The translations under genes and the position numbers were made by a program. Source: Flavihumibacter profundi (lineage in GTDB: Bacteria > Bacteroidota > Bacteroidia > Chitinophagales > Chitinophagaceae). From it: DNA of 64,000 bases. The notes beneath the pieces are model-generated. The model ran no database searches. It saw only the letters and a list, made by a program, of their open reading frames with translations, and was not told the DNA's origin. Below are positions 41,455 to 61,043 of this stretch, piece by piece (the first letter of the stretch is position 1; the number at the start of each line of letters is the position of its first letter). The stretch lies in NCBI RefSeq assembly GCF_020076305.1, contig NZ_JAIQXE010000001.1, positions 124,001-188,000 of the forward strand. The letters run 5' to 3'.

Positions 41455-42612
41455 TTATTTTTTAAACCAAAGATTAGTTATCCTTCCATTGTTTTTTGCC
41501 GGATCACTAATATGCAATGAATCATTTTGCAAGGTTAGTGTTCGGCCTTCCGGGTGCATATCCCACATTTTCCCTGAAAAGAAAACATTCATGCCATTGT
41601 GTATGCCTGCTGCAGGCGCCCGCTTTGCCATGGCATATTTTGCCCATGCATCTCCTTCGGTGATATGGTGGTAATCTGCAACGGTATCAACATCTGCAGG
41701 TGGCGGAAATCCATTGTAACCATTCCAGGGAGAGGTCCATACCGAATCGGGTCCTCCCAAAGAAGGGATAGCGATCACATCGGCCTTGTTGTTTAAATTC
41801 CTGTAAGCTGCAGGAAACCAGGAATCCGCACAAACCAGCACTGCAAGCCTTCCGGCAGGTATATTAAAAATCGGCGACTGGGTTGTTTCGGCAGCACAGG
41901 TGAACCCCTGCTCGTCGGTGATGGGGAATATTTTTTTGATCAAAGGCTGCATTACTTTTCCCTGGATATCAAATACCGCTGAAGTGTTATACAATTTTCC
42001 TGGCCTCGTTGCAATTATACCATCAGGAGTTACCTCGGGATCTGCCAGCACTGCTGATCCAGCGACTATTGTTACCTGGTAGTCCCTGGCAAGCCTGCTG
42101 AAAACGGATTGATAAATACCGGCGATTTCTTTTTGTTTCATCCGGAATAATGCTTCTTTAGTCCTGTCGGCCGAACTGCTGCTGAAATATGCAGGAAGGT
42201 ATGCAAACAGGTTGCTGACTACCTGCAGGGTCAGGGCATCAGTAATTGTTGCGGCGGGATCGAAAACTTTCTTCTTTTCATTGGCAGCCACGAGCCAGGA
42301 ACCGATATACTCGGGGAAAACTACAATGGTCTTTTTATTGAATAATCCACCTGATTTTGCCCGTTCCATATAGATCCGCAATAACTGGTAAAAACTGGCT
42401 TCATTGGCATAGTTAGCAGGGGTTAAAATGGGTTGCATGCCAATTATATTCCCGTCTGCAGAATCGGCCTTGCCAAAATTAATAACTTCAATGGCAGCAG
42501 GTTCTATTTTAGTTGCCAGGGGGGTCTCATCTACCCGCCCAAACCTGGACCAGATCCAGCCACATAACAAAAGGGCGAGCAGCACAATCCCAATGTTCCG
42601 AAGCACCTTCAT
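41455..42612 (-). CDS. Membrane-anchored carbon-nitrogen (nitrilase-family) hydrolase
   Basis: A 385-residue protein with an N-terminal hydrophobic helix ([16 protein letters not shown]), so it is anchored in or exported through the inner membrane. The nitrilase superfamily triad is visible: Glu101 in VFPEY, Lys226 or Lys227 in LIKKIFP, and the nucleophile Cys261 in VCADSWFP. The region resembles nitrilase, amidase or apolipoprotein N-acyltransferase catalytic domains; the small size and single anchor argue against the last. It probably hydrolyses an amide or nitrile. Same strand as the amine oxidase that follows. Confidence 0.8.
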
Positions 42613-42713
42613 CAGTTTTTTTTTTAAAAGATAATGGGTTTGTCTGATTGTAGGAATTTAATTAATCAATAAACCTGCACACAACAGAATGTTTTGGTCA
42701 TTTTTTTTGGAAA

Positions 42714-42731
42714 ACATGATTAAAATCATGT
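42714..42731. promoter_or_regulatory. Perfect palindrome ACATGATT-AA-AATCATGT
   Basis: An 18-bp inverted repeat with 8-bp arms and a 2-bp centre, immediately upstream of the Crp/Fnr-like site at 42737. Palindromic AT-rich form could be a second regulator site. Only the symmetry is seen; the factor is unknown. Confidence 0.4.
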
Positions 42732-42736
42732 CATAA

Positions 42737-42781
42737 TGTAACTTTTGTAACAGAACAGGCTATGTTTTTTGGCCAATTTTA
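42737..42781 (+). promoter_or_regulatory. Crp/Fnr-like operator and -7 box, cstB-like promoter
   Basis: TGTAACTTTTGTAACA at 42737-42752 (one mismatch from a TGTAAC-N4-GTTACA palindrome). Exactly 29.5 bp from its centre begins CAATTTTA (42774), a degenerate TAnnTTTG -7 box. The same spacing occurs in three other promoters of the locus, which is the main evidence. ATG is at 42811. Confidence 0.6.
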
Positions 42782-42810
42782 TAACCAGTAAACCGTGAAA
42801 AATATTAATT

Positions 42811-44226
42811 ATGAAATTAGAACAAATTTATACTGGCTGTATTGCACATGCTGCTTATTACCTCGAAAGCAAAGGTGAGGCAGCTATATTTGACCCCCTC
42901 AGGGAAGTTCAACCCTATATCAATAAGGCGGAAAAAGATAATGCAAAAATCAAGTATGTATTTGAAACACATTTCCATGCAGATTTTGTGAGTGGTCACC
43001 TCGACCTCATGAAAAAGACCGGGGCAAAAATTGTTTTCGGCCCGACTGCAAAACCTGCTTACGAGGCGATCATTGCAGAGGATAACCAGGTATTTAAAGT
43101 GGGTGATTGCAGTGTAAAAGTGATTCATACGCCCGGCCATACCATGGAAAGCACCACCTATATGTTGATTGATGAAAATGGCAGGGAACACGGCCTTATT
43201 ACAGGAGATACCTTGTTTATTGGCGATGTGGGCAGGCCTGACCTTGCTCAGCATGTAATTGCTGAATTGACAGAAGAAAAACTTGCCGGACATTTATACG
43301 ATTCCCTTCGGAATAAGATCATGCCGTTAAGTGATGACCTGATCATCTATCCAAACCATGGTGCAGGAAGTGCTTGCGGTAAGATGATGAGTAAAGAAAC
43401 TACCGATACGCTGGGTCACCAGAAAAAAGTGAATTATGCACTTAATCCAGCGCTAACCAAAGAGGAGTTCATTAAAGTATTGCTAAAGGGCCTTACAGCA
43501 CCTCCGGGATATTTTCCGCAGAATGTACTTATGAATATTAAAGGGTATGAGAGCCTGGATACAATTATGAAAAGAGGCAAGCACCCATTGAATGTGGGAG
43601 AGTTTGAAGCAGCTGCTAATGAAACAAGGGCATTGATTTTAGACACCAGGGAAGCTTCTGAATTTGCTAAAGGATTTATCCCGAATAGTATAAATATTGG
43701 TATTGATGGAAGTTTTGCTCAATGGGTAGGGGAGATGATTCCTGATGTAAAACAGGAAATCCTGTTGGTAACTGAACCAGGCCGGGAAGAAGAATCAATC
43801 ATCAGGTTGTCCCGTGTTGGCTATGATAACACCCTGGGTTATTTGCAGGGTGGCATTTCTGCCTGGAAAGCATCAGGCAAGGAAGTGGATACCATAAATC
43901 GGATTACAGCCACTGAATTTGAGCGGCAGTACAAAGCCGGGAAGCCTGTTGTTTTTGATGTAAGAAAAGCTAGTGAATACGATTCTGAGCATGTCATTGG
44001 GGCCATCAATATTCCTTTAAACCAGATTAACAGCCACCTGGCTGAAATTCCAAAGGAAAAACCTTTTCTTTTGTATTGTGGCGGTGGTTATCGAAGCATG
44101 ATTGCTGCGTCTATCCTGAAGCAAAGGGGCTGGGAAAATTTCTCAGATGTTGTTGGCGGCTTTACTGAACTGAAAAATACAGATGTGGCGAAATCGGAAT
44201 ATGTTTGTCCGACTACCCTTTTATAA
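42811..44226 (+). CDS. CstB-like persulfide dioxygenase fused to two rhodanese domains
   Basis: A 471-residue cytosolic protein in three parts. Residues 1-230 are a metallo-beta-lactamase fold of the ETHE1 type: THFHADFVSGH with His54 and His56, HTPGHT with His110, and GDTLF with Asp133. His54, His110 and Asp133 match the ETHE1 mono-iron site, and Phe59 replaces the His of a second metal site. Residues about 270-365 are a rhodanese-like domain without the catalytic Cys (LVTEPGREEE). Residues about 370-471 are an active-type rhodanese with Cys423 in YCGGGYRS. This is the CstB arrangement: it oxidises persulfides and transfers sulfane sulfur. First gene of the sulfur locus. Confidence 0.9.
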   Translation: MKLEQIYTGCIAHAAYYLESKGEAAIFDPLREVQPYINKAEKDNAKIKYVFETHFHADFVSGHLDLMKKTGAKIVFGPTAKPAYEAIIAEDNQVFKVGDCSVKVIHTPGHTMESTTYMLIDENGREHGLITGDTLFIGDVGRPDLAQHVIAELTEEKLAGHLYDSLRNKIMPLSDDLIIYPNHGAGSACGKMMSKETTDTLGHQKKVNYALNPALTKEEFIKVLLKGLTAPPGYFPQNVLMNIKGYESLDTIMKRGKHPLNVGEFEAAANETRALILDTREASEFAKGFIPNSINIGIDGSFAQWVGEMIPDVKQEILLVTEPGREEESIIRLSRVGYDNTLGYLQGGISAWKASGKEVDTINRITATEFERQYKAGKPVVFDVRKASEYDSEHVIGAINIPLNQINSHLAEIPKEKPFLLYCGGGYRSMIAASILKQRGWENFSDVVGGFTELKNTDVAKSEYVCPTTLL

Positions 44227-44253
44227 ATATTGACGGTTTGATTATTGGACATT

Positions 44254-44279
44254 AGCCCCGGTATTTTGCCGGGGCTTTT
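44254..44279 (+). terminator. Rho-independent terminator after the cstB-like gene
   Basis: Stem AGCCCCGG (44254-44261) pairs with CCGGGGCT (44269-44276) around loop TATTTTG, followed by T residues. It lies 28 bases after the stop of the cstB-like gene. Confidence 0.9.
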
Positions 44280-44321
44280 CGTAATTTAACGGCAATACTA
44301 AGCTGCCATATAGAAATATTT

Positions 44322-44741
44322 ATGATGATGGGAAAATCAAGCCGGTTGTTTATATGTTGTTTTGTTTTCGCCATTTTTTGGCTGGCTTGTGATACGCAGG
44401 AGAAAAAAGAGGTCCATAAAAAGGCAGATTATATCCGGAAAATAGATGGGCCTAGTGACAGCATCCCTATAGAGGTTGCAAGGCGTGGTGAAGTGCTGAT
44501 CGCCTATTCCGACTGTTATGAATGCCATACTAAAGAGAATAGGGCAAAGGGCCCTGCATTTAAGGATATTGCAAAAAGATACCCGGTAAACAATGGGTAT
44601 ATAAGCTTGCTGGCACAGCGGGTCATACTTGGGGGATCTGGTGCCTGGGGTAAATCTGTAATGTTGCCCCATCCTAAAATCCCTCAGGAAGAAGCAGAGA
44701 CAATGGTGAAATTTATTTTATCACTTAAAGATTCCCCGTAA
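44322..44741 (+). CDS. c-type cytochrome lipoprotein
   Basis: A 139-residue periplasmic lipoprotein with lipobox FWLAC and a single heme site CYECH (Cys65, Cys68, His69) flanked by YSDCYECHT and KGPAFKDIA; the sixth ligand is probably Met in KSVMLPHP. It is a class I monoheme cytochrome c. In a sulfur-oxidising context it could accept electrons from sulfur or thiosulfate oxidation, which is inferred from position. Three consecutive ATG codons precede the signal; the first is taken as the start. Between it and the next gene lies the long hairpin at 44780. Confidence 0.85.
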   Translation: MMMGKSSRLFICCFVFAIFWLACDTQEKKEVHKKADYIRKIDGPSDSIPIEVARRGEVLIAYSDCYECHTKENRAKGPAFKDIAKRYPVNNGYISLLAQRVILGGSGAWGKSVMLPHPKIPQEEAETMVKFILSLKDSP

Positions 44742-44779
44742 TATATCCGTTACGCATAACACGTAATTCCTTATGTTTT

Positions 44780-44841
44780 GAAGCAACCGGGCTATTTGTA
44801 ACCTTTGTTACAAATAGCCCGGTTGCTTCTTTCTAATTTTG
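44780..44841 (+). promoter_or_regulatory. Perfect 23-bp hairpin with Crp/Fnr-like operator at its tip, plus -7 box
   Basis: Arms 44780-44802 and 44807-44829 are perfectly complementary, with loop CTTT. The inner part, TGTAACCTTTGTTACA (44797-44812), is a perfect example of the operator found elsewhere in the locus. The -7 box TAATTTTG starts at 44834, again 29.5 bp from the operator centre. The hairpin starts 39 bases after the cytochrome stop and is followed by a short T-rich tract, so it may also act as a terminator. It is unusual that an operator is embedded in such a large stem. Confidence 0.75.
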
Positions 44842-44911
44842 GTTCTTGAATTTATATAGCTACCTGAGCTTATTATAGGAAGGCATATTTATATACGATA
44901 ATTAATAAAAG

Positions 44912-45154
44912 ATGAAGCAGCAAATATTTAGTAATTGGAATTTTATGAGGGTCATCAGGTTGGTTTTGGGTTTGGCCATATTTGTACAGGCTATCCTGTC
45001 AAGAGATACGATGTTTGGCCTGGTTGGCTTATTGATATCTGGTATGGCAATATTTAATATAGGTTGTTGTGGAACTGGCGGATGTTATACTCAACCAAAG
45101 AAAAATTTGACATCTGAAACTAATAAAGAAATCATTTATGAAGAAGTGGGTTAA
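44912..45154 (+). CDS. Small membrane protein with C-terminal Cys cluster (YgaP/DUF2892-like)
   Basis: An 80-residue protein with a hydrophobic N-terminal half (VIRLVLGLAIFVQAIL, MFGLVGLLISGMAIFNI) forming two membrane helices, then CCGTGGC and a charged tail. The topology resembles the membrane part of YgaP-like proteins that bind or pass sulfane sulfur. The cysteines could carry persulfides or bind a metal. It overlaps the DUF6132 gene by 17 bases. The family assignment is tentative. Confidence 0.7.
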   Translation: MKQQIFSNWNFMRVIRLVLGLAIFVQAILSRDTMFGLVGLLISGMAIFNIGCCGTGGCYTQPKKNLTSETNKEIIYEEVG

Positions 45155-45359
45155 CGGAAATAAACTTTACCTGTTTGGTGCCCTCATCGGGGCAGTTGCC
45201 GGATTTTTATACTGGCAGCAGGTTGGATGTTCATCAGGAACCTGTATGATAACATCAAAACCGTTTAACAGTACTGTTTATGGCGCGGGTATGGGGGCTT
45301 TATTATTCGGTATGTTTAAAAAGGACATTAAGGCGAAGGATGAAAATAAAGCAGTTTAA
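45138..45359 (+). CDS. DUF6132 family small membrane protein
   Basis: A 73-residue protein with a hydrophobic start (YLFGALIGAVAGFLYW) and the motif GCSSGTCMITSKPFNSTVYG characteristic of DUF6132, found in Bacteroidota next to rhodaneses. Two membrane helices are likely, with the two cysteines between them. Probably handles sulfane sulfur at the membrane, inferred from neighbours. Start codon lies inside the previous gene (17-base overlap), indicating coupling. Confidence 0.82.
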   Translation: MKKWVNGNKLYLFGALIGAVAGFLYWQQVGCSSGTCMITSKPFNSTVYGAGMGALLFGMFKKDIKAKDENKAV

Positions 45360-45398
45360 AAATCAACTTATAAATCAAAAATCGTAAAATTAAAAACA

Positions 45399-45707
45399 AT
45401 GAATATTTTTCAATCATTATTTGGCGGTGAAACCGCAGATTTAAAAAGCATAATTGAGAAAGGCGCTTTTTTAGTGGATGTAAGAACTCCTGCTGAATTT
45501 GCAGGCGGTAGTGTACCAGGTGCTGTAAATATACCTTTGGATACTATTGGGTCTCAACTTGCCAAATTTAAAGGCAAAGAAAATATTGTCGTGTTTTGCC
45601 GCAGCGGAAACCGTAGCGGCCAGGCAAAATCAATTTTAATGCAGAATGGATTTACCAATGTTATAAACGGTGGAACGGTTGATGACGTAATCAGGTTTGT
45701 GCATTGA
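45399..45707 (+). CDS. Single-domain rhodanese
   Basis: A 102-residue rhodanese with DVRTPAEFAGGSVPGAVNIPLD and the active-site loop FCRSGNRSGQA; Cys67 is the sulfur carrier. It should transfer sulfane sulfur between thiosulfate or persulfides and an acceptor. It is 39 bases after DUF6132 and is followed by a strong terminator, ending the unit that starts at the operator at 44797. Confidence 0.92.
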   Translation: MNIFQSLFGGETADLKSIIEKGAFLVDVRTPAEFAGGSVPGAVNIPLDTIGSQLAKFKGKENIVVFCRSGNRSGQAKSILMQNGFTNVINGGTVDDVIRFVH

Positions 45708-45758
45708 TGATTATGAAGTTTTAAGGTATATAAACCTGCTTCAGGCAATGGTTTTATT

Positions 45759-45801
45759 AAAGTACTGTTCATAGATAATTTCTTGAACAGTACTTTTTTT
45801 T
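45759..45801 (+). terminator. Rho-independent terminator after the rhodanese gene
   Basis: Stem AAAGTACTGTTCA (45759-45771) pairs with TGAACAGTACTTT (45784-45796), loop of 12 bases, followed by a run of T residues. Ends the small membrane protein/rhodanese unit. Confidence 0.93.
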
Positions 45802-45838
45802 ATGCCCTGTTGAAAAATATTTGAGTAAAAAATCCATA

Positions 45839-45883
45839 GGTCACAAAAGTCACAATTAAAGCTTTTTACGCCAATTACTTTTG
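45839..45883 (+). promoter_or_regulatory. Crp/Fnr-like operator and -7 box, tolC promoter
   Basis: GGTCACAAAAGTCACA at 45839-45854 (9 of 12 arm positions agree with TGTAAC-N4-GTTACA); its centre is 29.5 bp upstream of TACTTTTG (45876), a good TAnnTTTG box. The tolC-like ATG is at 45902. The spacing equals that of the other three promoters. Confidence 0.65.
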
Positions 45884-45901
45884 CGCATAAATTTTTAATT
45901 A

Positions 45902-47245
45902 ATGGACAAAAGAAAATATTTTATCTCAGTGGCGGTCGGAACATTTGCTTTGTTTATTAGTAGCGTATTAAGTGTTTCAGCACAGGATAGTTCAAGGAAT
46001 TTAAGTCTGGATGAGGCTATTGCTGCGGCTTTAAATAATAATAAAGCTATTCAGTTAACAAAACTGGATGAAAGTATAGCAGCCCAGAATTATAAGCAGA
46101 CTGATGCTATTTTTCTACCGCAGGTTGGTTTTTCATACACTGCATTAACTTCGAATAATCCCCTTAATGTTTTCGGATTTAAACTGCAGCAACAATCTGT
46201 TACGGCGAAAGATTTTAATCCTGATCTGCTTAATAATCCCTCCGCAACTGGCGATTTTACAACCAGGCTGGAAGTGCAGCAACCATTGTTAAATATGGAT
46301 TTAATCTACAAAAGGAAAGCGGCTGCAAAGCAAACTGAATTGTACCAGTTTAAAACACAGCGAACAAAGGAATACCTGACTTTTGAAGTACAGAAAGCCT
46401 ACCTGCAACTACAGTTGGCATATAACGCTGTAAATGTGTTAGAAGAGGCATTGAAAACCATAAATGAAGTGTACAGTTTTACTGAAAATCACTTTAAGCA
46501 GGGTTTGATACAGAAATCTGATTTGTTAAATGCTCAGGTGCAAGTTAAAACTATTGAGAGCAACCTTTCAAAAGCCAGGAGTAATGTCCGCAATGCATCT
46601 GATTATATAAGCCTGTTAATGGGTGCAAAAGATGGTACGGTTTATAAAGTTGGAACTGACCTTAGTACTAATCCAAATGTAATTGATACTACAGTTAAAG
46701 TTGCTGATTCGAGGGCTGATTTTGTGGCCATGCAAAAGGCGCTTGAAGCTTCTGACCTGATGATAACAGCGAATAAGAAAACCTACCTGCCAAAATTGAA
46801 TGCATTTGGAAATTACCAGCTCAATGATAGCAAAATGCTGGGTTTCGGTTCAAATTCCTATTTAGCAGGCATTCAGTTGTCTTGGGATATATTTAAAGGG
46901 AACCGGACAAAAAATACAATTGCCACGCAAACATTGGAGCGCGACAAATTAGCCATGGAACTGGAGCAACAAAAGGACCAAAGCCAGTTGGAACTCGATA
47001 AAGCTTTTCGTGACTTAGGCGATGCCCGTTTTGAAATAACCCAAAAGAAGGCCTCCATTGAGCAGGCAACCGAATCATTGCAGATTTTGCAAAACAGGTA
47101 CCAGCAGGGTTTAGTCAATACAACAGATGTATTGATGTCTGCAACGCAATTGTCACAACAAAAATTTGCCCTGGCACAGTCGGTGTTTGCTGCTGAAGTA
47201 ACCAGTGCATATGTACAATTTTTAACAACTACTTCAAATAAATAA
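45902..47245 (+). CDS. TolC-family outer-membrane efflux protein
   Basis: A 447-residue outer-membrane channel with a signal peptide (ends about VLSVSAQ). The paired alpha-helical repeats are visible (SLDEAIAAALNNNKAIQLTKLDESIAAQNYKQT; the second repeat near residue 340), with the TolC-type YQQGLVNTTDVL. It connects a plasma-membrane pump to the outside. First gene of a three-gene pump operon. Substrate unknown. Confidence 0.93.
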   Translation: MDKRKYFISVAVGTFALFISSVLSVSAQDSSRNLSLDEAIAAALNNNKAIQLTKLDESIAAQNYKQTDAIFLPQVGFSYTALTSNNPLNVFGFKLQQQSVTAKDFNPDLLNNPSATGDFTTRLEVQQPLLNMDLIYKRKAAAKQTELYQFKTQRTKEYLTFEVQKAYLQLQLAYNAVNVLEEALKTINEVYSFTENHFKQGLIQKSDLLNAQVQVKTIESNLSKARSNVRNASDYISLLMGAKDGTVYKVGTDLSTNPNVIDTTVKVADSRADFVAMQKALEASDLMITANKKTYLPKLNAFGNYQLNDSKMLGFGSNSYLAGIQLSWDIFKGNRTKNTIATQTLERDKLAMELEQQKDQSQLELDKAFRDLGDARFEITQKKASIEQATESLQILQNRYQQGLVNTTDVLMSATQLSQQKFALAQSVFAAEVTSAYVQFLTTTSNK

Positions 47246-47257
47246 ACTACGGAAAAC

Positions 47258-48367
47258 ATGAATATGACTAATAATTTTAAAAAGACTTTTCAGATTTTTA
47301 CCGGGGTTGGACTCCTGGCTTTAACAGCATGCTCCTCAAATGAAAAAAGGGAAACTGAGGCTGTAACTAACACGCCAATTGTTGTAACAGTGGGAACTCC
47401 TTCGGGATCTGATCAAAAGGAATTGAATATCAGCGGGAAGATTGAAGCTTCACAATCCGTTAATATCAGTACCAGGGTCATGGGTTACATTACCATGCTG
47501 AAAGTGAAAGTTGGTGATCGTGTAGCAAAAGGTCAGTTGCTGGCAACTATCAGTAACCAGGACATGCTTGCAAAAAGGGCCCAGGCAGATGCTATGATTG
47601 AAGAAGCTCAGGCTGCATTGAATAGTGCACAAAAAGACTATGACCGGTTTACTGTTTTATACAAACAGCAAAGTGCTACGGAAAAGGAATTAGACAATGT
47701 TACCCTCCAGTATAATGCAGCCAAATCAAGGTTAGAGGGTGCGAAACAAATGCGTAATGAGGTAAATGCAATGCTTGGTTATACCAATTTAAAAGCACCT
47801 TTTGCCGGAATAGTTACCCAAAAATTAGCAGAAGCCGGTAATATGGCCAACCCAGGTATGCCTATCCTGGTAATTGAGCAGAGTGGCAGCTACCAGGTAA
47901 GTGCTTCCGTTCCTGAAAATTCTATCAGCCAGATTAAGCAGGGGGGAACCGCCACTATAACTATTAGTGCAATTGGCAAATCAATTCCAGGAACTATTAC
48001 ACAGGTTAATCAATCTTCTGAGTTTACTGGTGGCCAATACCTTATAAAAGTGGCTATCGCCGATAAAGATAAAGTTGGTTTGTATGCAGGTATGTACGCA
48101 AACGTAGCCATTCCTGTGGTACAAAAAGGTACTGTTGAAATTGATGGCGACAGGTTAATGGTGCCGGTTTCCAGTATTGAATTTAAAGATCAACTGACCG
48201 GTTTATATACCATTGGTAGTAATAATACGGCATTGTTGCGTTGGGTTAGACTGGGCAAGACTTATGGAGCGAATGTTGAAGTGCTTTCCGGCCTTGGTAA
48301 AAATGAACAGTTTGTTGTAAGTGCCGATGGTAAATTATACAATGGTGCCCAGGTGAAAATTAAATAA
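47258..48367 (+). CDS. RND efflux periplasmic adaptor lipoprotein
   Basis: A 369-residue membrane-fusion protein with lipobox LTACSS (Cys at about residue 26). The barrel-sandwich start (VSINISTRVMGYITMLKVKVGDRVAKGQLLATI-like segment) and end (GYTNLKAPFAGIVTQKLAEAGNMANPG) flank a coiled coil; a beta-barrel domain follows. It bridges the TolC and RND components. 12 bases after tolC and 54 before the RND gene. Confidence 0.93.
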   Translation: MNMTNNFKKTFQIFTGVGLLALTACSSNEKRETEAVTNTPIVVTVGTPSGSDQKELNISGKIEASQSVNISTRVMGYITMLKVKVGDRVAKGQLLATISNQDMLAKRAQADAMIEEAQAALNSAQKDYDRFTVLYKQQSATEKELDNVTLQYNAAKSRLEGAKQMRNEVNAMLGYTNLKAPFAGIVTQKLAEAGNMANPGMPILVIEQSGSYQVSASVPENSISQIKQGGTATITISAIGKSIPGTITQVNQSSEFTGGQYLIKVAIADKDKVGLYAGMYANVAIPVVQKGTVEIDGDRLMVPVSSIEFKDQLTGLYTIGSNNTALLRWVRLGKTYGANVEVLSGLGKNEQFVVSADGKLYNGAQVKIK

Positions 48368-48421
48368 GAAGTATTGGTGATTGGAGCATTGTAAAATGAA
48401 TTAACGAATTAATATAATCAA

Positions 48422-51400
48422 ATGAAAAATGGTTTTTCCGGAAATATTGCAAAGGGCTTTTTGCAGTCGAAATTAACAATACTGCTGATGCTCGCCTTTC
48501 TCCTGATTGGCGGGTACAGCACCTTTTTAATTCCGCGCGAAGAAGAGCCCCAGATCAAGGTTCCAATGGCTGATATATTTATTGGCTATCCCGGAGCTGA
48601 GCCTAAAGATGTTGAAACTAAAGTTTCGGCGCCAATGGAGAAAATGATCTCCAATGTAAAGGGGGTGGAATACGTTTATTCTACCTCTATGAAAGGTCAG
48701 GCGATGCTGATTGTTCAGTTTCATGTAGGGGAAGATGTTGAACGTTCACTGGTTAAATTGTACAGTGAACTGATGAAGAATATGGATAAAATGCCCCAGG
48801 GGGTTACCATGCCACTCATTAAAACAAGGGCCATCGATGATGTTCCGGTGTTGGGCTTAACCCTGTGGAGTGATTCCTACGATGATTACCGATTGAAGCA
48901 GCTTGGCCAGGTATTGACAAATGAAATAAAGAAAGTTCCCGATGTTTCTGACGTTAATATATTGGGAGGCAGGAGCCGCGAGGTGAGGGTATTCCTTGAT
49001 AAAATAAAAATGGCTGAGAACCATGTTGATTTTTTATCTGTAAGCAAACAAATCCAGGGTGGAAATGCACAGATGCAAAGTGGCAATCTCCTGCAACAGG
49101 ATACTGCTTTTTCAGTGGAAACAGGGAATTTCCTGACTAATTCCGATGATGTTGCTAACCTGGTGGTGGGATTAAACCAACAGCAGCCGGTATACCTCAA
49201 ACAAATCGCAAAGGTTGAAGACGGACCGGAAACATCAAGTCAATACGTGTTGTTTGGATATGGAAAGGCAGATACGTTGAATTCAGCGAAATTCAAATCA
49301 AATTACCCTGCAATTACTTTAAGTATCGCCAAGAAGAAGGGTGCTGATGCAATGAAATTGTCCCAGCAAATTATCTCAAAAGTTGATCACCTTAAAAAGG
49401 ATTTAATTCCTGCTGATGTTCAATTGACTGTTTCCAGGAATTACGGTGAAACAGCTTCTGATAAAGTGTCGGAATTACTATTCCATTTATTTATTTCAAT
49501 TGTTGTTGTTACAGCATTCGTAATGCTGGCTATGGGCTGGCGCGGCGGACTGGTGGTGTTCTTGTCTGTTCCCGTAACGTTTGCGCTAACATTGTTCAGT
49601 TATTACTTCATGGATTATACATTGAACCGTATAACCCTGTTTGCACTTGTATTTATTACGGGTATTGTGGTGGATGATTCCATTATTATAGCAGAGAATA
49701 TGCACAGGCATTTTAAGATGAAAAAACTGCCACCGCTGCAGGCCGCAATCTATGCTATTAATGAAGTGGGTAATCCTACAATCCTGGCCACTTTTACAGT
49801 TGTCGCGGCAGTATTGCCAATGGCCTTTGTATCTGGAATGATGGGCCCTTATATGAGCCCGATGCCAATAGGTGCATCTATTGCGATGATGCTTTCCTTG
49901 GTAGTGGCTTTAACACTTACACCATACCTCGGTTATATATTCCTTCGTGAAAAAGAAAAAAAGGGTGTGGCGCATGAGGAGAGCAAACCATTGTCACTTG
50001 AAGAGAGCGGTATTTATAAAATTTATCGTTCGTTTATTCACCCAATGCTGGAAACAAGGTGGAAGCGCTGGACATTTATCGTTAGCATAGTTGTCATTTT
50101 GCTTGGGTCTCTGTCAATGTTCTATACAAAGGCAGTGGCAGTAAAAATGCTGCCTTTCGATAACAAGAATGAATTCCAGGTTGTAATTGATATGCCGGAA
50201 GGAACAACCCTGGAGAAGTCCCAGGCCGTTGCGAAAGATATCGCTGGTTATATTTCAATGCAACCTATGGTTGAAAATTACCAGGTTTATATTGGTACTG
50301 CAGCTCCTATAAGCTTTAACGGGCTCGTAAGGCACTATGATTTGCGTCGCGGTGAAAATGTGGCAGATATACAGGTTAATTTGGTCGACAAGAAGGATAG
50401 GAAAATTCAGAGTCACGATATCGCTAAGGAAATGCGTGGACCTATCCAGGCCATTGCAAAAAAATACAATGCCAATGTGAAAATTGTTGAAGTGCCACCT
50501 GGTCCCCCGGTATTATCTACTTTGGTCGCTGAAATATATGGACCAGATTATAAGGAGCAGGTAAAAATTGCCTCACAGGTCAAGTCCTTGTTTAATAATA
50601 CCAAAGATGTTGTTGATGTGGACTGGATGGTTGAAGACGACCAGCCTGAATACCATATAGAGGTTGATAAAGAAAAAGCTATGAAATACGGAGTCACTGC
50701 GGCACAGGTTACAAACACCATTAACGCAGCGCTTTCCGGAATGCCAGTTGGGAATATTTACCAGCCTGCTTCGTATAACCAGACAATTATAAAGCTGCAA
50801 TTAAGTGATTCGGACAAATCAGATATCAACGATATCCTCGATTTGAAAATTACCGGAATGCAGGGAAATAGTGTGCCTGTGCGGGATGTAGTAACAGTTG
50901 CCAGGCAAATCAGGCAGAAAAGTATTTATCGCAAGAACCAGAAAGAGGTAGTATACGTATTAGCTGATATGGCCGGTAAACTGGAAAGTCCGTCATATGC
51001 TATTTCTAATATCTCTGATAGTTTGAAAAATATTCAGGTTGCCAAAGGCTTTTCAATTAAGGAAGAATACACTCACCAGCCAGAACTTGAGGATAATTAT
51101 TCAATTAAATGGGATGGAGAATGGCAAATTACTTTTGAAGTGTTCAGGGATCTTGGTATTGCATTTTTGGTAGTAATCATAATGATCTATATACTGATCG
51201 TAGGATGGTTCCAGAATTTTACAGTGCCACTGGTAATGCTGGCAGCAATTCCATTATCATTAGTGGGAATTGTTTTGGGACACTGGATGATGCATGCATA
51301 TTTTACCGCTACCTCCATGATCGGATTCATTGCATTAGCCGGGGTGATGGTAAGGAATTCAGTACTGCTGATTGACTTTATCAATATACGCTTAAGGGAA

Positions 51401-51631
51401 GGTGTTCCATTGAAGCAGGCTATTATCGAAGCCGGTGCAGTGAGAACAACACCAATTTTGTTAACAGCTGGTGCAGTTGCATTAGGCGCAGTGATCATTT
51501 TGTTTGACCCGATATTCCAGGGACTCGCAATTTCACTGATGGGCGGTACAATTACCTCAACCTTTTTGACCTTATTGGTTGTGCCTTTACTGTATTATAG
51601 GATGATGAGAAAAAAATACCCTGAACAATAA
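48422..51631 (+). CDS. RND-family efflux permease
   Basis: A 1069-residue inner-membrane proton antiporter of the AcrB/MdtB type with twelve membrane segments and two large periplasmic loops. The first helix region FLIPREEEPQIKVP, the TM4 motif GIVVDDSIIIAENMHRH containing the proton-relay Asp pair, and the second-half FIALAGVMVRNSVLLIDFINIR are visible. Metal (CzcA) or drug/lipid substrate cannot be fixed from sequence. Regulated with sulfur genes, so it might export a sulfur-stress product, which is inference. Confidence 0.93.
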   Translation: MKNGFSGNIAKGFLQSKLTILLMLAFLLIGGYSTFLIPREEEPQIKVPMADIFIGYPGAEPKDVETKVSAPMEKMISNVKGVEYVYSTSMKGQAMLIVQFHVGEDVERSLVKLYSELMKNMDKMPQGVTMPLIKTRAIDDVPVLGLTLWSDSYDDYRLKQLGQVLTNEIKKVPDVSDVNILGGRSREVRVFLDKIKMAENHVDFLSVSKQIQGGNAQMQSGNLLQQDTAFSVETGNFLTNSDDVANLVVGLNQQQPVYLKQIAKVEDGPETSSQYVLFGYGKADTLNSAKFKSNYPAITLSIAKKKGADAMKLSQQIISKVDHLKKDLIPADVQLTVSRNYGETASDKVSELLFHLFISIVVVTAFVMLAMGWRGGLVVFLSVPVTFALTLFSYYFMDYTLNRITLFALVFITGIVVDDSIIIAENMHRHFKMKKLPPLQAAIYAINEVGNPTILATFTVVAAVLPMAFVSGMMGPYMSPMPIGASIAMMLSLVVALTLTPYLGYIFLREKEKKGVAHEESKPLSLEESGIYKIYRSFIHPMLETRWKRWTFIVSIVVILLGSLSMFYTKAVAVKMLPFDNKNEFQVVIDMPEGTTLEKSQAVAKDIAGYISMQPMVENYQVYIGTAAPISFNGLVRHYDLRRGENVADIQVNLVDKKDRKIQSHDIAKEMRGPIQAIAKKYNANVKIVEVPPGPPVLSTLVAEIYGPDYKEQVKIASQVKSLFNNTKDVVDVDWMVEDDQPEYHIEVDKEKAMKYGVTAAQVTNTINAALSGMPVGNIYQPASYNQTIIKLQLSDSDKSDINDILDLKITGMQGNSVPVRDVVTVARQIRQKSIYRKNQKEVVYVLADMAGKLESPSYAISNISDSLKNIQVAKGFSIKEEYTHQPELEDNYSIKWDGEWQITFEVFRDLGIAFLVVIIMIYILIVGWFQNFTVPLVMLAAIPLSLVGIVLGHWMMHAYFTATSMIGFIALAGVMVRNSVLLIDFINIRLREGVPLKQAIIEAGAVRTTPILLTAGAVALGAVIILFDPIFQGLAISLMGGTITSTFLTLLVVPLLYYRMMRKKYPEQ

Positions 51632-51641
51632 ATTTGACTAT

Positions 51642-51950
51642 ATGAAATTATTTATAATAACCTGTTTGAAAGAATACCAGGAAGATGTTCAAAAAATATT
51701 TAAAAAGGCCCTGATTAATGCCTTTAGTGTGACAGATGTAATTGGATTTAAGGATAATAATCTTCATCCAAACCCTTTGGGGGAGTGGTTTGCCAGTGGC
51801 GATGAAAAATTTGATTCTGTTATGATATTCAGCTTTACTACTGAGGAAAATGCTGAAAATGGGCTGGAGTTGATCAGGATCTATAATGAAACTAATAACA
51901 GCGGATTTCCTGTCAGGGCATTTTTAGTCCCTGTTGAAAAGTCTTTGTAG
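51642..51950 (+). CDS. Small conserved protein of unknown function in the efflux operon
   Basis: A 102-residue soluble protein beginning MKLFIITCLKEYQEDVQKIF and containing GFKDNNLHPNPLGEWFASGDEKFDSVMIF. The alternation of short beta strands and helices suggests a ferredoxin-like or PII-like fold. It starts 10 bases after the RND stop, so it belongs to the pump transcript. I do not recognise a family. Confidence 0.75.
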   Translation: MKLFIITCLKEYQEDVQKIFKKALINAFSVTDVIGFKDNNLHPNPLGEWFASGDEKFDSVMIFSFTTEENAENGLELIRIYNETNNSGFPVRAFLVPVEKSL

Positions 51951-51989
51951 TTAGGATTCTTATTCTGAAAATTTATTAAATGAAATAAA

Positions 51990-52172
51990 ATGAGAGAAAA
52001 AATAGTTCGTTCCGTTGCAGGAATTATGATTTTACTAAGTGTGTCCCTGGCTTATTTTGTCGGTATTCACTGGCTCCTGCTGGGTGTATTTGTTGGTGTG
52101 AACCTGTTGCAGAGCAGTTTTACGAATTTTTGCCCTTTGGAAAAAATCCTGGACAAGCTGAAGATTGATTGA
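51990..52172 (+). CDS. YgaP-like (DUF2892) inner-membrane protein
   Basis: A 60-residue protein, almost all hydrophobic (VAGIMILLSVSLAYFVGIHWLLL, LGVFVGVNLLQSSFTNFCP). The motif NLLQSSFTNFCPLEKIL is the end of the DUF2892 membrane hairpin of YgaP, where it is normally fused to rhodanese. Here it is separate. It follows the unknown small gene by 39 bases. Role probably in sulfide or sulfane-sulfur handling at the membrane. Confidence 0.85.
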   Translation: MREKIVRSVAGIMILLSVSLAYFVGIHWLLLGVFVGVNLLQSSFTNFCPLEKILDKLKID

Positions 52173-52193
52173 TCATAAGTGCCGGAGCTATAC

Positions 52194-52238
52194 AGTAACA
52201 AAAGTTACTGACACATTTTAATTACTAATTTAATTTTG
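52194..52238 (+). promoter_or_regulatory. Crp/Fnr-like operator and -7 box, thioredoxin promoter
   Basis: AGTAACAAAAGTTACT at 52194-52209 has perfect 6-bp arms; centre 52201.5 lies 29.5 bp before TAATTTTG (52231). The ATG of the thioredoxin gene is at 52257. Same spacing as in the three other promoters of the locus. Confidence 0.7.
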
Positions 52239-52256
52239 TAGTAAATAGTTATAAAT

Positions 52257-52652
52257 ATGGCAACAATACAACTGACAACTCAGGGGTTTAAGGAAAATAT
52301 ATTTAATTACGAAACAGAACAAGATTGGAAGTACCAGGGAGCATTGCCTGCAATAATTGATTTTTATGCTGACTGGTGCGGGCCATGTAAAATGGTAGCT
52401 CCAATTCTTGAAGAGCTTTCGAAGGAATATGAAGGCAGGCTTGTTATATATAAAGTGAATACAGATATTGAGCAGGAATTGTCGGCCGTATTTGGTATCC
52501 AAAGTATTCCTACAATTCTGTTTATTGGAGTTGATGGCGAACCAATGATGCAGCCAGGAGCCTTTCCCAAACATGTGTTCAAACAAGTAATTGAAGAAAG
52601 ATTACTTGTTCCTGTTACAAACGAATTGGGCGATAACCAGATTGACTTATAG
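52257..52652 (+). CDS. Thioredoxin
   Basis: A 131-residue cytosolic thioredoxin with DWCGPCKM (Cys41, Cys44), the cis-Pro loop SIPTILFIGVDG and FAVFGI-type core. It reduces disulfides or persulfides and may recycle the rhodanese or dioxygenase partners of this locus. It ends 1 base before the convergent GH127 gene. Confidence 0.95.
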   Translation: MATIQLTTQGFKENIFNYETEQDWKYQGALPAIIDFYADWCGPCKMVAPILEELSKEYEGRLVIYKVNTDIEQELSAVFGIQSIPTILFIGVDGEPMMQPGAFPKHVFKQVIEERLLVPVTNELGDNQIDL

Positions 52653-52653
52653 T

Positions 52654-54654
52654 TTAGTCCGTTAAAGGGAATTCACTTATTCTTAAGGTAGTACAACCAT
52701 AAGGTATTAGTGTAATTAATTCTTCCGGGGCGCCATTGCTGGCTGCCCTGCTGATGGGTAATTTACCTGCCGAATTGTTGTACTCCTTCCATTGCATTAA
52801 GCGTTTCCCTTTGACCGTAATACTTATTGGTGCATTTTGTAAATTCCAGGGCATGTCAGCAACTGTTTTCTTTTCTGTTATTTTAAACTGGCTTTTCCGG
52901 ACAGACTCATCTGTGATCCCATAATTCCAGGGTGATTTTGGAAGCACTTCATAAAAAGCTTGTGGAAAATCATTGTTCTTACCGGATTTCCATTCCTCCT
53001 CAATTTTTAGCGCATACAACAATGGCCCCCGTTCAATTGCTATCGAGTTTTCTGCCCAGCGGCTGGTATGTATTTCCATTGGCAATTGCAGGTCCAGGAT
53101 ATCTCCTTTTTTCCAGGTCCTGTTAATCACTATAACCTGGTTTCCGGCAGGTTGCTCAATTATTTCTCCATTTACCCTGATGACCGCTTTCTTACACCAG
53201 GCAGGTATGCGCAGGTGAAAAGGCATGGAAACTGATTGGTTGGTGGTATAGGTAAATTTTATATGGTCATCAAACGGGTAATTTGTTTCCTCGGTAAAGC
53301 TAATGGTGTTTCCTCCACGAACTTTTAGTTTTACATCACTGCTGCCGTAAACTAAGGCTGCAACACCTTCATCAGCAGTGGCGTACCATAAATTCTGTAC
53401 ATATTTGGGATATCCCTGGTGCATATTGGCTGTGCAGCATGGGTAGCCTGTAAGGACACCAAACACAAGACGGCCATCAATATCATCAAAGAAATTCCGG
53501 TGATCATATGTGACTTTTATCTGGTTGGGTTGTTGAAAATATTGGCGTAGGGTAAATTTATCATTGTGTTGCGCCGGTAAAACATTGAAGGCGATTTTTT
53601 CTAAGTAGTCAGCATAAGCCACATCCCCCGTGATAGGTAGCATACTTTCAAAGGAAAACATCATTTCCACCGCACTGCATAGTTCTGATCCCTGTGTAGG
53701 GTCATTGCCATGCATTGACTCATCGGCACCATACATGCCATTGGCGAAGCCATGGACTTTCCTGATGGTTTCCAGTCCTGTTTTCACCGAAGCCAGGTAG
53801 CTGCTGTCACCTGTACGCTGGTAATATATTACCGGCGTTTTAATACCCTGGGCTACGTTTACACAATGTAGTTGGGGAAAAGGATTCACCGTTGCCAGGG
53901 TGCCGTCTGTGAAAATTGATTTCCAGGGGGTGGTTTGTTTATAGATCAGGTCGCCTAATTCTATAAGAAAAGGCTCTTTGGTTATATTGTATAACCAATA
54001 AACAACAGCAAGGTTATCGCCTCCCCGCTGGGCACCCCAGAAGGTCCAATGGTCTAAGGGTTGCTGGGGAAGATGGAGGAGCATATATTTAAAATATCCC
54101 GACATCAGCTTCAGTACCCTTTTGTCTTCTGTTGCTGAATAATATTGCTGCAATACTTTCAACATCACCATTTTGGGCCACCAGTCTTCATGGTCAGTAT
54201 TTTGTACACCTTTTACACTGGGCAAAGGTTTGGTCGGTGGTCGCGGGCCGAAATAGCCATCTTCCCGCTGGTTGGCAATACTCCATTCAATCCATTGCTG
54301 TGCTTTATCCTTTAATTGCTGGTCGTTGAGTATATAGGCTAAAGGCACCAGCCCATCTAGCCAATAAGGGCCCCGTTCCCAGGCATCGCCATTTCCACCC
54401 AACCAGGCATTGGCGGGACCGCAAACTTCTTTATAAACACTATCAAGATTGCTGGTAAGTCCAGCCCTTTGTAATTCCAACATTTTTAAAAGCCAGCCCT
54501 TTGGTTGTATGCTCCCCAGCGGAAGTGCAACATAAGCTTGTGGTTGCAGCGGCGCCTGGTTGGTAATATAGTAAGGGTTGGATTGGGCCTGGCTAAAAAG
54601 GCTACAATAACAAATGGTAATAAGTGCAAGGTATTGAATGACTCTGTATTTCAT
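52654..54654 (-). CDS. GH127-type beta-L-arabinofuranosidase-domain protein
   Basis: A 666-residue secreted protein with a signal peptide (ends about LFSQAQ). The (alpha/alpha)6 barrel hallmarks are WLDGLVPLAYIL, WGAQRGGDNLAVVYWLYN, and the metal/cysteine centre: Glu324 and Cys326 in SELCSAVE, and Cys406-Cys407 in YPCCTANMHQGYPK, matching the Zn-Cys site of GH127, whose nucleophile is a cysteine. A beta-sandwich C-terminal region follows. The family hydrolyses beta-L-arabinofuranosides of plant glycans. No operon partner on this strand. Confidence 0.9.
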   Translation of the reverse strand: MKYRVIQYLALITICYCSLFSQAQSNPYYITNQAPLQPQAYVALPLGSIQPKGWLLKMLELQRAGLTSNLDSVYKEVCGPANAWLGGNGDAWERGPYWLDGLVPLAYILNDQQLKDKAQQWIEWSIANQREDGYFGPRPPTKPLPSVKGVQNTDHEDWWPKMVMLKVLQQYYSATEDKRVLKLMSGYFKYMLLHLPQQPLDHWTFWGAQRGGDNLAVVYWLYNITKEPFLIELGDLIYKQTTPWKSIFTDGTLATVNPFPQLHCVNVAQGIKTPVIYYQRTGDSSYLASVKTGLETIRKVHGFANGMYGADESMHGNDPTQGSELCSAVEMMFSFESMLPITGDVAYADYLEKIAFNVLPAQHNDKFTLRQYFQQPNQIKVTYDHRNFFDDIDGRLVFGVLTGYPCCTANMHQGYPKYVQNLWYATADEGVAALVYGSSDVKLKVRGGNTISFTEETNYPFDDHIKFTYTTNQSVSMPFHLRIPAWCKKAVIRVNGEIIEQPAGNQVIVINRTWKKGDILDLQLPMEIHTSRWAENSIAIERGPLLYALKIEEEWKSGKNNDFPQAFYEVLPKSPWNYGITDESVRKSQFKITEKKTVADMPWNLQNAPISITVKGKRLMQWKEYNNSAGKLPISRAASNGAPEELITLIPYGCTTLRISEFPLTD

Positions 54655-61000: not shown

Positions 61001-61043
61001 AAAAAAAGCAACAGCCCGAATTTTCGGGCTGTTGCTTTTTTTT
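61001..61043. terminator. Bidirectional rho-independent terminator
   Basis: A near-perfect inverted repeat: AAAAAAAGCAACAGCCCG (61001-61018) faces CGGGCTGTTGCTTTTTTT (61025-61042) with a 6-base centre, giving A and T runs on both sides so that it can act in both directions. It lies 53 bases after the DUF4382 stop on the minus strand. Confidence 0.9.

Follow-up and report, generated by a model that had tools for sequence, protein, structure and literature searches.

The window (the whole 64,000-nucleotide stretch of the Flavihumibacter profundi contig NZ_JAIQXE010000001.1 that we analysed) carries on its + strand a block of genes whose content suggests sulfide/persulfide handling as a common theme. 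A gene combining a metallo-beta-lactamase fold with two rhodanese domains (42811-44226), whose product may be persulfide-dioxygenase-like, precedes that of a c-type cytochrome (44322-44741; Pfam Cytochrom_C, E-value 8.2e-5, 24.3 bits with the cut-off at 21.3), which represents the upstream transcript in what follows. The first gene downstream (44912-45154, + strand) encodes a small protein without a Pfam match that, judged by eye, is probably membrane-bound, and it is followed on the same strand by a DUF6132 protein gene (45138-45359) and a single-domain rhodanese gene (45399-45707), both identified by domain calls. Past the rhodanese lie genes for a TolC-like protein, a YgaP-like protein and a thioredoxin, with HlyD and RND genes (called from reading their sequences) between the TolC and YgaP-like genes. 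A separate terminator-like hairpin of 13 bp (45759-45796, + strand) is found between the rhodanese gene and the operator of the TolC-like gene. Another terminator-like hairpin follows the lactamase/rhodanese gene (44254-44277), some 45 bp ahead of the cytochrome start; its middle, GGTATTTTG, is by eye near to a -7 box, and this could be a second terminator-promoter overlap.

Between the cytochrome and small-protein genes, positions 44780-44829 (+ strand) contain the arms 44780-44802 and 44807-44829, which pair at 23/23 positions around the four-nucleotide loop CTTT (GAAGCAACCGGGCTATTTGTAAC-CTTT-GTTACAAATAGCCCGGTTGCTTC) and which we predict to be the intrinsic terminator of the cytochrome transcript. 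As RNA, 44770-44845 folds at -41.1 kcal/mol, where shuffled sequences average -11.67 (sd 2.59; z -11.36) and 0/200 fold as well. The initial annotation had described a perfect hairpin with a 23-bp stem beginning 39 bp past the cytochrome stop; the hairpin is real and does begin at the 39th base past that stop codon (which ends at 44741), so that a stable stem stands shortly past a coding region. Its count of 11 outer pairs on each side was wrong, since the stem runs 17 pairs beyond the 16-bp operator in either direction. Six perfect hairpins with stems of 10 bp or more (loops 3-12) occur in the window, this one being the longest, while 20 sample stretches of the same genome (400 kb) hold 10 of at least 12 bp (loops 3-10) with a maximum of 24 bp; thus long perfect hairpins do occur here and one of 23 bp is rare. 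Other very long ones in this genome are at L150 3862-3913 (24 bp) and at window 61001-61042 (19 bp). A search of the 4.87-Mb genome returned only the self-match, on both strands, and hence none of the further copies that were sought as a sign of a dispersed palindromic repeat or mobile-element end. No Rfam family matched at gathering score within 42600-52700.

The tip of the hairpin coincides with TGTAACCTTTGTTACA (44797-44812, + strand), a predicted Crp/Fnr-type class II activator site that has 0 mismatches to the consensus TGTRACN4GTYACA. Located 21 bp past it, and separated from the stem by four bases, is TAATTTTG (44834-44841, + strand), the putative -7 box of the next unit, which falls within the terminator tail; the claim of an overlap with the next promoter is thus borne out by the sequence. 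Three sister operators lie on the same strand: TGTAACTTTTGTAACA (42737-42752) before the metallo-beta-lactamase/rhodanese gene, with a weak box CAATTTTA at 42774 (two mismatches; its unit is left out of the 44 counted below), GGTCACAAAAGTCACA (45839-45854) before the TolC-like gene, with box TACTTTTG at 45876, and AGTAACAAAAGTTACT (52194-52209) before the thioredoxin, with box TAATTTTG at 52231. In all, four related operators occur within 9.5 kb (at 42737, 44797, 45839 and 52194), each exactly 21 bp before a -7-like box, and these four pairs, spanning 42737-52238, suggest a small class II regulon of sulfur, efflux and thioredoxin genes.

An operator scan of the window alone is not significant (four matches with up to three mismatches, 4.59 expected), so the argument is carried by the spacing and by the relatives. 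Genome-wide, the exact core GTAACN4GTTAC occurs in five places, base composition predicting 5-6 by a hand estimate, and the same core read backwards, as a control, in 24. Spacing was scanned in the window plus fetched loci (1,687,772 bases including overlaps, identical sites being counted once); 30 listed places had been read as loci and 60 more as stretches, the remainder of the list being mostly weaker. There are 128 stranded exact GTnAC-N4-GTnAC sites, most places being counted twice because the pattern is the same on both strands. Allowing at most one mismatch in the box TAnnTTTG, 44 distinct units have it at gap 21, against 0-4 at every other gap from 5 to 44; with the exact box the figures are 19 sites at gap 21 versus 8 over the 39 other gaps of that range. 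None of the 104 sites of a reversed-core control has a box at gap 21. Since most scanned loci were gathered around homologues of the block genes, the 44 units are kin by descent rather than independent, and none of them lies in the 20 sample stretches of this genome (400 kb) or in the 21 named loci found through the cytochrome. In E. coli, class II CRP and FNR activators sit at -41.5. According to PMC9723704, the TAnnTTTG box of Flavobacterium spans -12 to -5, which would place the operator centre, 29.5 bp upstream of the -7 box, at -41.5 as well. The gap of 21 in the 44 units therefore puts the predicted operator centre at the class II position, given a start site that is itself predicted. 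Taken together, the fixed 21-bp gap and the presence of the same core in the orthologous promoters of two relatives (G058 and G177) make the operator identity of 44797-44812 well supported as a prediction.

The kind of regulator that may use this site is suggested by neighbouring genes. The genome has seven matches to HTH_Crp_2, one of them partial (45 positions in a 51-aa frame); none lies in the window and one adjoins a second lactamase/rhodanese gene (C3). A blastp search with the C3 Crp/Fnr protein found a homologue in 10 of 20 fetched regions, its own included. Among the 20 units examined (of 44), the gene upstream of the operator is a Crp/Fnr homologue in 11 (34-50% to the C3 protein), and there its stop codon occupies operator positions 3-5, directly before the next promoter, as the TAA of TGTAAC in 10 (L185, L189, L202, L203, L205, L219, L221, L223, L224 and L227) and as the TGA of TGTGAC in L208. 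In a twelfth unit (L210) the Crp/Fnr gene ends 40 bp upstream of the operator, and in the other eight the upstream gene encodes another protein. Thus, with a Crp/Fnr gene adjoining it in 12 of the 20 examined units, the operator appears to be tied to a Crp/Fnr regulator, and one or other of this genome's Crp/Fnr proteins probably binds and activates at TGTAACCTTTGTTACA. The C3 cluster of the same genome (L124 4243-7344, G000:C3) comprises the Crp/Fnr gene, the lactamase/rhodanese paralogue (62%), a small protein (40%) and a thioredoxin-like match, and in it TGTGACAAAAGTCATA stands 21 bp upstream of CAAATTTG.

Several features speak for termination at the hairpin. The T-rich tail TTTCTAATTTTG (44830-44841) is present on the + side only, with a T score of 3.33 on + and 0.05 on -, although some of its T residues are those of the -7 box. 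No second perfect stem of at least 7 bp occurs in the 260 bases past the cytochrome stop. By crude ORF calls, none of the 10 perfect hairpins with 12 bp or more in the 400-kb sample lies inside a called ORF, though one shares 17 bases with the start of an ORF; a terminator role would suit such hairpins in this genome. The tail TTTCTAATTTT is interrupted, which counts against a terminator. A separate terminator-like hairpin before the operator in G058, described below, adds support, and the poor T-tail of its counterpart in G177 detracts from it. On balance, 44780-44829 probably terminates the cytochrome transcript.

The relatives keep the operator and lack the long arms. Outside the central four bases, the arms of the 44 units have two pairs in 20 units, five in 17, six in three, seven in one, eight in two, and 23 only at 44780. 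G058 has an identical operator (TGTAACCTTTGTTACA) in its orthologous promoter, starting 5 bp past the end of AAAAGCAGC-TTTTTG-GCTGCTTTT, a hairpin that resembles a terminator (T-tail score 3.1); in the orthologous promoter of G177 the operator is TGTAACCTTTGTTACC and an 11-bp hairpin with a poor T-tail (0.9) lies 24 bp upstream. Separate hairpins also stand 26-69 bp before the operator in the TolC promoters of the window, G058, G177 and G173 (tail scores 4.1, 3.8, 1.7 and 2.6, respectively). Hairpin and operator are therefore in tandem at the G058 and G177 orthologues and at the TolC promoters, and nested at 44780. In 22 of 31 co-oriented units no hairpin of at least 7 bp was seen in the stretch examined, by gene calls so crude that the upstream-gene label of a unit may be wrong. 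This leaves unsupported a general rule that long arms occur wherever the upstream gene is co-oriented; with most co-oriented units lacking a terminator, the separate-terminator pattern rests on the G058 and G177 orthologues and on the four TolC promoters.

Searches for the nested element itself, with the hairpin DNA and with a structure model in 294 genomes of the family, found it in this genome only, and a genus search in one of 15 genomes, again this one. In the large model search the filters were strict and one hairpin alone served to build the model, which means that nested hairpins whose arms differ greatly could have escaped it. Weak DNA matches in G107 and G207 look by eye like coding sequence without a matching hairpin, and structure-model matches in G033 and G227 are other hairpins whose tips lack GTnAC-N4-GTnAC. 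A terminator-like hairpin of G033 (L228 646-685) has as its apex TGTAAATTAGTTTACA, a CRP-like palindrome, with no -7 box at a 21-bp gap when examined by eye. Among 30 cytochrome-orthologue loci, an operator (at most two mismatches) or a perfect stem of more than 12 bp within 260 bases past the stop was found only in the window's own, the stops being located crudely. A near relative, G013, still has the lactamase/rhodanese gene (88%) and, at 73%, the cytochrome, but the 18 kb fetched from it contain neither the downstream block nor the hairpin. The initial annotation had proposed that the arms should stay complementary in relatives, and this formally failed, the operator being kept and the long arms found in no other genome searched. 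Its broader suggestion of a terminator and an operator at once is supported in each part by the position, the polar T-tail and the gap of 21, but not by conserved arms. Since the relatives keep the operator without the long arms, we regard the fusion as lineage-specific and perhaps recent, and with the nested form in one genome only, selection on the nesting is unproven.

We favour, and regard as likely, a reading in which the next operon has its operator in the loop and upper stem of an intrinsic terminator, the tail of which doubles as the -7 box of that operon. As RNA, the 23-bp hairpin and its T-rich tail would end the cytochrome transcript at about 44832-44841; it is the upstream transcript that contains the hairpin RNA, which is encoded before the predicted downstream start (about 44846). 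As DNA, TGTAACCTTTGTTACA at the tip would be bound by a Crp/Fnr-family dimer, centred at about -41.5, which would activate the operon of small protein, DUF6132 and rhodanese genes from the -7 box within the terminator tail, with transcription starting at around 44846. The hairpin would terminate in this scheme, and the signal sensed would presumably be sulfide or persulfide. A terminating polymerase would have to cross the operator and would stop on the -7 box, and termination and activation should therefore interfere with each other.

Among the alternatives, a regulator bound at the tip could roadblock or pause the polymerase and so alter termination, while cytochrome transcripts strip the activator, each unit thereby controlling the other. 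The layout is suggestive, as the terminating polymerase must traverse 44797-44812 and halt on the tail and box (44830-44841), and roadblocking by bound proteins is reviewed in PMC10310618. In G058 and G177, however, hairpin and operator are separate, which indicates that nesting is not a conserved feature of the regulon, and we consider such coupling unlikely. Decidedly unlikely, too, is its fullest form, a two-way switch in which a tip-bound Crp/Fnr dimer would activate the downstream persulfide operon and alter cytochrome termination, and cytochrome transcription would evict the activator; if true, one 62-bp element would exchange expression between two neighbouring units.

One could also regard the palindrome as passive, replication template switching at the operator having copied one flank into the other with no role beyond that of the operator. 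A perfect, operator-centred hairpin not found in relatives is what this would produce, and RNA hairpins reportedly can arise by template switching (PMC8794818). Against this stand the location 39 bases past the cytochrome stop, the polar T-tail and the fact that the 260 bases past that stop contain no further perfect stem of at least 7 bp; flank comparisons gave no ancestral arm, as the similarity of the spacer and left flank to those of other units was uninformative. A purely passive palindrome is thus quite improbable, yet an origin by template switching could be true together with the terminator-operator reading, and the fusion possibly arose in this way at the operator palindrome. The perfect two-fold symmetry about the operator might instead mean that the long arms belong to a protein site, either as a longer version of the operator or as a cruciform that another DNA-binding protein recognises; given that the other 43 units have arms of only 2-8 pairs and that the T-tail is polar, this is highly improbable.

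On the terminator-operator reading, one palindrome would be read twice, as RNA for one transcript and as DNA for a regulator, with the tail serving as the -7 box of the next promoter. The locus would offer a natural test of terminator-promoter interference, for which G058 and G177, with their parts separate, are the controls. More broadly, the comparison, with its strict 21-bp gap between operator and box, suggests that sulfur and persulfide genes of this Bacteroidota family form a class II Crp/Fnr regulon. Searches of the open-licence literature gave no description of a sulfur/persulfide class II regulon (the results were mostly off subject) and no report of a terminator with an activator site nested within it. 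Terminator and operator would each be of a known kind, and what appears new is their nesting and the shared -7 box. The site resembles those of class II Crp/Fnr promoters, as known from E. coli CRP and FNR, in being a symmetric TGTRA-N6-TYACA-type sequence at -41.5, but it differs in working with a Bacteroidota TAnnTTTG box and in forming the tip of a terminator-like hairpin. With intrinsic (Rho-independent) terminators the element shares a perfect stem (11 G-C pairs), a short loop, a T-rich tail and a position near a stop codon, whereas its 23-bp stem, its operator in the loop and upper stem and its promoter element in the tail set it apart. The closest parallel is the tandem arrangement of G058 and G177, which has the same operator core, the same 21-bp gap and a hairpin placed after the upstream gene and ahead of the operator; there the two parts lie 5 and 24 bp apart, whereas at 44780 they are nested.
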